From Rhodopseudomonas palustris (GTDB lineage Bacteria; Pseudomonadota; Alphaproteobacteria; Rhizobiales; Xanthobacteraceae), in NCBI GenBank assembly GCA_016215605.1, contig JACRJB010000041.1, positions 1 to 59,691 of the forward strand: DNA of 59,691 bases. The letters are read 5' to 3'. The notes below the pieces were generated by a model, which did not search any database, was not told the DNA's origin, and saw only the letters and a list, made by a program, of their open reading frames with translations. A program made the translations under genes and the position numbers. Positions 41,775-44,020 of the stretch are shown in pieces (within the stretch, counting starts at the first letter, position 1; each line of letters begins with the position of its first letter).

Positions 41775-42311
41775 ATGACCGATCTCGTCTTGGTGTCCCG
41801 CGCCGCCGATTTTGCCGCGCGCTCTCATGCCGGGCAGCGGCGCAAGGGCGCCGCGAAGGAGCCCTACGTCAATCACCTCGCCGAGGTCGCCGAGCTGCTG
41901 GCGGTAGCGACCGACGGCTCCGACGCGGCGCTGGTCGCCGCCGGCTGGCTGCACGACACCATCGAGGATTGCGGCACCACGCGCGACGAGCTGACCGACC
42001 AGTTCAGTGCCGACGTCGCCTCGCTGGTGGCCGAATGCACCGACGACAAGACGCTGGCGAAGGCCGAGCGCAAGCTGCTGCAGATCGCACACGCGCCGGA
42101 TCTCACCGGCCGCGCCCGAATGATCAAGATCGCCGACAAGATCAGCAATCTGCGCTCGCTGATCTTCTCGCCTCCCGACGATTGGGAGCGCGCGCGGCTG
42201 ATCGATTATCTCGACTGGTCCGACAAGGTCGTCGCCGGCTGCCGCGGCGTCAGCCCGTCGCTCGAACGCATCTACGACGAAACCGCATCATCCGGAAGGG
42301 CCGTCCTGTGA
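41775..42311 (+). CDS. HD-domain (p)ppGpp hydrolase, MESH1-like small alarmone hydrolase
   Basis: 178 residues from ATG 41775, which has GGAA eight bases upstream (ATG 41766 is an alternative). It is a single HD domain of MESH1 size. The metal and substrate ligands fall at near-identical positions: R24-region RRKG, H34 (YVNHLAEV), H60-D61 (GWLHDTIED), E64-D65 and D121 in [13 protein letters not shown]. Such proteins remove the 3' pyrophosphate of (p)ppGpp, or NADPH phosphate in animal MESH1. No synthetase domain is present. Its stop overlaps the ureC start (GTGA), so it is translated together with the catalytic urease subunit. Confidence 0.82.
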
Positions 42312-44020
42312 GCACGAAAATCTCGCGTTCCGTCTATGCCGACATGTTCGGCCCGACCACCGGCGATCGCGTCCGGCTCGCCGACACCGATCTGATCATC
42401 GAGGTCGAGAAGGATCTCACCACCTATGGCGAGGAGGTGAAGTTCGGCGGCGGCAAGGTGATCCGCGACGGCATGGGGCAGTCGCAGGTCACCAATCGCC
42501 AGGGCGCGGCCGACACCGTGATCACCAACGCGCTGATCGTCGACCACTGGGGCATCGTCAAGGCCGACGTGTCGATCAGGGCCGGCATGATCCATGCGAT
42601 CGGCAAGGCCGGCAATCCGGACATCCAGCCGAATGTCGACATCATCATCGGGCCGGGCACCGACGTGATCGCCGGCGAGGGCAAGATCCTCACCGCCGGC
42701 GGCTTCGACAGCCACATCCATTTCATCTGCCCGCAGCAGATCGAGCACGCGCTGATGAGCGGCGTCACCACGATGCTCGGCGGCGGCACCGGCCCGTCGC
42801 ACGGCACCTTCGCGACCACCTGCACGCCGGGGCCGTGGCACATCGGCCGGATGATTCAGTCGTTCGATGCCTTCCCGGTCAATCTCGGCATCTCCGGCAA
42901 GGGCAACGCCTCGCGCCCCGCGGCACTGAAGGAGATGATCGAGGGCGGCGCCTGCGCGCTGAAACTGCACGAGGACTGGGGCACGACGCCGGCGGCGATC
43001 GACAACTGCCTCACCGTCGCCGACGACTACGACATCCAGGTGATGATCCACACCGACACGCTGAACGAGAGTGGTTTCGTCGAGGACACCGTCAAGGCGT
43101 TCAAGGGCCGCACCATCCACGCCTTCCACACCGAAGGCGCCGGCGGCGGCCACGCGCCGGACATCATCAAGGTCGCCGGGCTGAAGAACGTGCTGCCGTC
43201 CTCGACCAATCCGACGCGGCCGTTCACCCGCAACACCATCGACGAGCATCTCGACATGCTGATGGTGTGCCACCATCTCGATCCGTCGATCGCCGAAGAT
43301 CTTGCGTTTGCCGAAAGCCGCATCCGCAAGGAGACCATCGCGGCCGAAGATATCCTGCACGACCTCGGCGCGCTGTCGATGATGTCGTCGGACAGCCAGG
43401 CGATGGGCCGGCTCGGCGAAGTCATCATCCGCACCTGGCAGACCGCCGACAAGATGAAGAAGCAGCGCGGCGCGCTGAAGCAGGACACCGCGCGCAACGA
43501 CAATTTCCGGGTCAAGCGCTACATCTCGAAGTACACCGTCAATCCGGCGATCGCGCACGGCGTGTCGAAGCTGATCGGCTCGGTCGAGACCGGCAAGATG
43601 GCGGATCTGGTGCTTTGGTCGCCGGCGTTCTTCGGCGTCAAGCCGGACTGCATCATCAAGGGCGGCACCATCGTGGCCGCGCCGATGGGCGATCCCAACG
43701 CCTCGATCCCGACGCCGCAGCCGGTGCACTACCAGCCGATGTTCGGCGCTTATGGCAAGGCGCTGACCGCGTCGTCGGTGGTGTTCACCTCGAAGGCCGC
43801 GGTCGCCGGCGGCCTCGCGCGCAAGCTCGGCATCCAGAAGAAGCTGTATCCGGTCGCCAATGTCCGCAAGGGCATCTCGAAGAAGAGCATGATCCACAAC
43901 GACGCGACGCCCAACATCGAGGTCGATCCCGAGACCTACGAGGTCCGCGCCGACGGCGAGCTCCTGACCTGCGCGCCGGCCGAAGTGCTGCCGATGGCGC
44001 AGCGCTACTTCATGTACTGA
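42308..44020 (+). CDS. ureC: Urease alpha (catalytic) subunit
   Basis: 570 residues from a GTG that overlaps the stop of the alarmone hydrolase gene. All nickel-site residues are present and map with a constant +2 offset to Klebsiella urease: H136, H138 (GGFDSHIHF), carbamylated K219 ([10 protein letters not shown]), H248, H274, flap C321-H322 (MVCHHLD) and D362. The enzyme should be active once nickel is loaded. The next genes downstream are unrelated to urease. Confidence 0.97.

Follow-up and report, generated by a model that had tools for sequence, protein, structure and literature searches.

Mesh1 and Mesh1-L are subgroups of the small alarmone hydrolases (SAHs), according to the accessible part of an earlier report (PMC3153485). 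Among bacterial members with assayed activity, SAHMex of M. extorquens AM1 (MexAM1_META1p3226) hydrolyses ppApp and pppApp, while its activity on ppGpp and pppGpp was not measurable ("negligible" in the abstract) and no detectable phosphate was released from NADPH, as far as the available sections of that paper state (PMC7644958). XccSAH of Xanthomonas campestris was found to use pppApp, pppGpp, ppGpp and pGpp; it hydrolyses NADPH as well, but poorly, and alarmones are by far its better substrates (PMC9765508, sections at hand).

The gene described here is located at positions 41775-42311 on the plus strand of a 59,691-nt stretch of Rhodopseudomonas palustris DNA (contig JACRJB010000041.1), which as a whole is called the window in the following. 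It encodes a protein of 178 amino acids with a single HD_4 domain. Its reading frame extends from M1 at 41775 to the stop codon at 42309-42311; a second in-frame ATG at 41766, upstream of 41775, is possible as start, and the loci L003 to L007 have a methionine at the position that matches 41775. The protein resembles SAHMex in being an alphaproteobacterial SAH, and XccSAH in being an orphan SAH without toxic alarmone synthetase. Broad alarmone activity was assayed for XccSAH; its authors, however, placed it in the Mesh1-L subgroup (PMC9765508, available part).

A Mesh1-type hydrolase with an intact metal site

In phmmer searches against PDB sequences, the window protein gave gap-free matches to human MESH1 (4.5e-38) and to fly Mesh1 (1.6e-33), so the likeness to Mesh1 is not a matter of chance. 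Bacterial Rel and SAH proteins were matched at 8e-16 or weaker, and phmmer scores amounted to 134 bits for human MESH1 versus 45 bits for the SAH of P. aeruginosa. Pfam placed HD_4 (PF13328) at residues 10-135 (69.3 bits; cut-off 27.2), and the spoT_relA model aligned with its N-terminal HD part only; a synthetase domain was not found in the protein. An AlphaFold2 model, computed from an alignment of 26 family members, reached a mean pLDDT of 96.0, with the human MESH1 structures 3nr1, 5vxa and 9chy as its top Foldseek matches (TM about 0.93).

A preliminary description, made from the letters of this DNA, had proposed a MESH1-like HD hydrolase with ligands at H34, H60-D61, E64-D65 and D121. 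Sequence match, domain score and fold all agree with this proposal, and each residue is found at the position given for it. Throughout the 83 urease-linked rows of our alignment (80 different sequences, with some genomes entered twice), H34, H60, D61, D65 and D121 are retained, while E64 is retained in 82. By family, fold and intact metal site, the product of 41775-42311 is a Mesh1-type hydrolase. It has the single HD domain, the length and the metal ligands of human and fly MESH1 (3nr1, 5vxa, 9chy, 3nqw), to which it aligns ungapped; yet those are animal proteins, whereas the window protein is bacterial and encoded within a urea operon. It is likely to be an alarmone hydrolase.

The RelA_SpoT synthetase domain (PF04607) was matched exactly once, by a long Rel, in 13 of the 14 genomes examined. 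These include the window's own genome, in which the sole match lies on a different contig from the SAH gene; in genome G111, a 225-aa frame gave an additional match of lower score. Since the one RelA_SpoT match is a long Rel, the window protein is regarded as an orphan SAH. We rejected a function as antitoxin of a toxic alarmone synthetase: the neighbours of the gene are an AbrB/PIN pair and urease genes, and the synthetase is on another contig. A known defence gene was also considered and dropped, as PADLOC gave no match at E 0.01 for the four proteins searched.

The urea gene set of the window

The SAH gene belongs to a co-directional set on the plus strand with the order urtA-urtB-urtC-urtD-urtE-ureD-ureA-(DMP19)-ureB-(AbrB-PIN)-SAH-ureC. 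The set starts with urtA for the urea-binding protein (32633-33949, TIGR03407), followed by the urea ABC transporter permease genes urtB (33967-35682, TIGR03409) and urtC (35888-37093, TIGR03408), the transporter ATPase genes urtD (37090-37854, TIGR03411) and urtE (38014-38712, TIGR03410) and ureD for a urease accessory protein (38993-39832, PF01774). The gamma subunit gene ureA (39902-40204) and the beta subunit gene ureB (40684-40998), both family profile matches, enclose a DMP19-like gene (40211-40687, PF14300). Between ureB and the SAH gene lie an AbrB/MazE-like antitoxin gene (41044-41328) and a VapC-like PIN-domain gene (41325-41717), again family profile matches, which overlap by ATGA. 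The set ends with ureC for the catalytic alpha subunit, which has a GTG start (42308-44020; NCBIfam TIGR01792, 969.7 bits). Content, order and a sigma-54 site are those of the urtABCDE-ureDABC urea uptake and urease set, as found in the relatives in Rhodopseudomonas and Bradyrhizobium. The set differs from the known one in carrying the SAH gene, to which the window adds the AbrB/PIN pair and the DMP19-like gene.

Several minor observations concern this region. By tblastn, the DMP19-like gene was found in one locus of the first 108, the window's own (L001). The AbrB/PIN pair occurs together with an SAH gene within the urease operon of L032, and without SAH at the ureB-ureC junction of G141. Right behind ureC of the window, two YCII-family genes follow in tandem (44187-44606 and 44732-45151). 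The same genome (G000) carries a second urease set with ureC and ureF on contig C67 (C67:97809-99438), and a better-scoring ureF on the separate contig C75 (82476-82916), away from the ure genes of the window.

With respect to regulation, a promoter-like TGGCAC-N5-TTGC, which we take to be the sigma-54 (-24/-12) consensus, is located on the plus strand at 32555-32569, 63 nt before the ATG of urtA. The exact motif was matched once in the 59.7-kb window versus 0.11 matches expected, and this expectation covers the exact site in the window alone. Out of 90 input loci, 47 had urtA and at least 60 nt of upstream sequence (two genomes are counted twice, and the operon of L179 from G125 is without SAH). 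All 47 have the site at a distance of 65-78 nt upstream of the nominal start of urtA, with no mismatch in 19 and one mismatch in 28. A sigma-70 promoter scan of 38600-44400 found no candidate, with 0.6 expected. The site before urtA suggests that gene sets of the Rhodopseudomonas/Bradyrhizobium type would be expressed under nitrogen limitation, and from the gene layout we infer co-transcription from the urt-ure genes down to the SAH gene. This argument stops short of Methylobacterium, since tblastn found no close copy of urtD or urtE near the SAH gene in 11 named Methylobacterium-type loci.

Distribution and history of the urease linkage

Within the family, 25 of 149 genomes gave an SAH match (1e-20), and Urease_alpha was matched in 125 (1e-3), with 120 exceeding the Pfam cut-off. 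SAH gene and ureC share a contig and lie about 1.6 kb apart at most in 12 of the 25 SAH-bearing genomes (G000, G028, G067, G108, G017, G064, G086, G024, G105, G010, G111 and G068); the 13 unlinked ones include G089, which is without urease, and G117, whose SAH gene is on a 3.5-kb contig. Across the class, SAH was matched at 1e-25 in 14 of 289 genomes, and two of these 14 loci were linked within 1.5-kb flanks, namely that of the own genome and the Methylobacterium-type L124. Linkage to urease does not hold for SAHs as a whole.

Named genomes were searched with a query alignment in which 12 of 13 rows were already urease-linked, and the best 80 of 374 confirmed candidates, ranked by likeness to the window protein, were analysed. 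At least three urease genes were found within 4 kb on the same strand in 66 of these 80 loci, and none in the remaining 14; since the set was chosen by likeness to the window protein, this proportion describes a clade and not a rate for SAHs. The linked loci include the genera Rhodopseudomonas, Bradyrhizobium and Methylobacterium, so this comparative search bore out conservation of the arrangement beyond the one strain, on which the preliminary description had depended. In Bradyrhizobium, SAH is present in 102 of 146 genomes and absent from 44. Linkage was found in 49 of the 51 neighbourhoods checked among these 102 (30 of 30 top-ranked, 16 of 18 others, which were mostly low-ranked, plus G024, G086 and G105). 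Only G551 and G563 deviate; their best matches are the weakest of all, and the SAH gene of G563 contains two in-frame stops. Second SAH copies occur in G591, G577 and G641, and those of G591 and G577 are unlinked. Methylobacterium/Methylorubrum, the genus of L046, has SAH in 15 of 99 genomes, 14 of which carry it in the urease operon, while the sole unlinked one lies on a short stretch.

The linked genomes of the family, the named loci and Bradyrhizobium rule out a strain-specific oddity. An obligate urease accessory gene is excluded as well: the Rhodopseudomonas genomes G154 and G155 have SAH without urease, and urease occurs without SAH in G125, with a 4-nt ureB-ureC spacer, and in G141, with the AbrB-PIN pair alone at this place. 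Thus the link between SAH and urease is real, but not obligate. Its position may shift, as the SAH gene is found in the ureA-ureB gap in the genomes G010, G068 and G111 (loci L008, L010/L055 and L011), and a single urease operon, L183 (G644:C49:72500-78500), contains two SAH genes, one in the ureA-ureB gap and one in the ureB-ureC gap. A plasmid-borne urease-SAH cassette was unsupported, as all 27 plasmid matches were less than 60% identical; Rhodopseudomonas, Bradyrhizobium and Methylobacterium were absent among the organisms of the 25 of these 27 matches that were listed.

The junction with ureC is less constant than the linkage itself. Translational coupling of the SAH gene to ureC had been proposed from their GTGA overlap, and the overlap is there: the bases 42308-42311 (plus strand) are common to the SAH stop and the ureC start. 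The last part of the SAH gene contains a putative SD-like GGAAGG (42294-42299, plus strand), which precedes the GTG of ureC by 8 nt. Among the 66 named linked loci, GTGA is shared by all five linked Rhodopseudomonas, L035 and four Bradyrhizobium, that is by ten only. Six loci, all Methylobacterium, have a 1-nt TGATG overlap, and the other junctions comprise gaps of 1-76 nt in 40 loci and of more than 500 nt in eight, with two being ambiguous. The overlap thus holds for linked Rhodopseudomonas throughout, but coupling by GTGA as a conserved device was ruled out; putative coupling is a local trait and not the conserved feature.

For the history of the linkage, trees of SAH rows were evaluated. 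On a tree of 121 rows, the urease label needs 3 changes versus 32.6 in shuffles, and the group formed by the linked rows also takes in L030, L033 and L134, the last being a long-branch row. In an unrooted tree of 64 rows, a branch with 97/90 support separates 33 linked rows plus L030 and L033 from the rest. These two unlinked SAH rows derive from R. palustris JSC-3b (L030) and R. faecalis (L033), in whose genomes neither UreF nor an above-threshold Urease_alpha was matched. Their SAH genes differ by a dN of 0.018 and a dS of 0.191. Across 12 SAH pairs within Rhodopseudomonas (this pair and eleven others), dN/dS ranged from 0.09 to 0.40, a substitution pattern that shows purifying selection on SAH within the genus. 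Because of the well-supported tree side and the selection on SAH in the urease-less L030 and L033, the linkage most simply arose once and is old, and SAH can outlive urease. The linkage would predate the split of Rhodopseudomonas, Bradyrhizobium, some Xanthobacteraceae and Methylobacterium, and the linked SAH was apparently inherited within the urease operon ever since.

A single origin also fits a gene that landed in an insert-tolerant rhizobial urease operon and stayed there, with a general function unrelated to urea, since one origin makes the linkage one event and not a repeated recruitment. SAH also persists without urease, and the same gaps harbour other inserts, such as the AbrB/PIN pair of the window, of L032 and of the SAH-less G141, or assorted ORFs, the commonest group of which is present in 14 of the 66 loci. 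However, we consider such a passenger unlikely: the linkage has been kept in three genera from two families or more, it survived the shift of SAH to the ureA-ureB gap, and in L183 SAH genes occupy each gap around ureB. In addition, other inserts are less regular, with spacers of more than 250 nt in 3, 22 and 8 of the 66 operons for the three gaps, counts that include SAH or ureB itself where the gene order was shifted. As a side observation, the ureB-SAH gap of 14 of the 66 linked loci (L099 and 13 others) contains a recurring group of 15 ORFs, for which no family match was found.

Substrate and possible role

The Methylorubrum-type SAH loci L046, L052, L054 and L120 are all part of a urease operon. 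L052, L054 and L120 have the residues HLA, HDTLEDTQ and ADKT, which equal the SAHMex residue list in the accessible part of PMC7644958 if two position labels are swapped; L046 has P where this list expects Q. On these grounds, SAHMex very probably belongs to the urease-linked clade. Consequently, removal of (p)ppGpp in particular, the function originally put forward for the window protein, has lost ground, as SAHMex acts on (p)ppApp and not measurably on (p)ppGpp in the available sections of its description. That (p)ppGpp is the main substrate of the window protein appears somewhat doubtful from these comparisons. The specificity of SAHMex may not carry over either, because the window protein has I and I where SAHMex has L and T (RelSeq V80 and L150, as read from the accessible residue list).

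The window protein retains W137, R141 and Y145, each of which aligns with human MESH1. Unlinked SAHs have W137 in 38 of 38 and R141 in 37 of 38 cases. Both residues are found in 32 of the 83 linked rows, comprising 7 of 7 Rhodopseudomonas, 20 Methylobacterium-type and 5 others. In the Bradyrhizobium branch, W137 and R141 are both replaced in 51 of 51 rows (e.g. L087:8001-8519) with an intact metal site, R141 by D in 42 and by E in 9. The AlphaFold2 model has R141 and Y145 on the same helix, separated by one turn, so R141 is probably near the substrate. Given the consistent replacement of W137 and R141, the Bradyrhizobium branch may differ in substrate from the rest of the linked clade.

These residues also bear on the idea that the enzyme mainly takes the 2'- or 3'-phosphate off NADPH, CoA or PAPS, tuning redox or anabolic cofactors during urea assimilation. 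By analogy, all three are possible ligands: among solved structures, the nearest are those of human MESH1, to which W137, R141 and Y145 point as well and which was crystallised with NADPH (5vxa) and PAPS (9chy), and MESH1 is described as an NADPH phosphatase (PMC9894426) and as a CoA phosphatase (PMC13221220) in the accessible parts of both papers. Weak hydrolysis of NADPH by XccSAH fits to this; however, the same enzyme strongly favours alarmones over NADPH (PMC9765508), and with SAHMex, phosphate release from NADPH was below detection (PMC7644958), as stated in the available portions of the two reports. Moreover, W137 and R141 are missing from 51 of the 83 linked rows, and a cofactor phosphatase seems improbable to us.

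Another scenario starts from urease maturation. UreG is the GTPase that loads nickel into urease, and local removal of (p)ppGpp might stop the alarmone from blocking it. The SAH gene is placed among structural urease genes, and the related GTPase HypB of E. coli binds ppGpp in its GTP pocket with a Kd of 12.4 uM versus 9.0 uM for GTP (PMC5845004, accessible part). Nevertheless, such a guard of maturation is very unlikely, as many ureases occur without SAH and ppGpp was not measurably used by SAHMex in the available sections of PMC7644958. Two urease-less genomes retain SAH, which argues against any pure urease accessory role.

We rather favour, with chances that we regard as about even, an orphan Mesh1-type SAH that has long been passed on with the urease operon and that reduces the level of a 3'-pyrophosphorylated purine alarmone during urea use. 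In alphaproteobacteria, (p)ppGpp rises upon nitrogen starvation. The SAH gene would be co-transcribed with the urt-ure genes when nitrogen is short (NtrC/sigma-54), and its product would cleave the 3'-pyrophosphate off (p)ppApp, and perhaps off (p)ppGpp, purine alarmones with the single long Rel as presumed source. The starvation alarm of nitrogen limitation would thereby be held down, and growth on urea nitrogen could proceed. A more specific version is proposed only tentatively: a Rhizobiales alarmone eraser might be encoded in an NtrC/sigma-54 urea operon, so that starvation triggers both the Rel alarm and its eraser, urea-committed cells are freed of an adenosine-type alarmone (pppApp, and possibly of (p)ppGpp as well), and the Bradyrhizobium branch has shifted to a further substrate.

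If true, cells would have a way out of the stringent response that is specific to one nutrient; we know of no earlier physiological setting, toxin defence aside, for a hydrolase that prefers (p)ppApp. To our knowledge, orphan bacterial SAHs are without clear physiological role, and an SAH in the urease operon of three genera provides a concrete condition for a substrate search, namely nitrogen limitation with urea. If confirmed, it would also offer a candidate physiological context for SAHMex, which we know from assays only.

In literature searches, for which most subscription papers were beyond reach, MESH1 and urease were not found together, and no paper was found to combine alarmone hydrolase, urease, ureC and urea, while urease, ppGpp and stringent response do co-occur in print. 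The enzyme family described here is known and its place is conserved, and within the reach of these searches it is the place itself that was not met.

Relatives of the hydrolase were also detected in phages: 133 phage records contain one at E 1e-5, all with less than 60% identity, among them Bradyrhizobium phage BDU-MI-1 (KY940711.1, 115886-116353).
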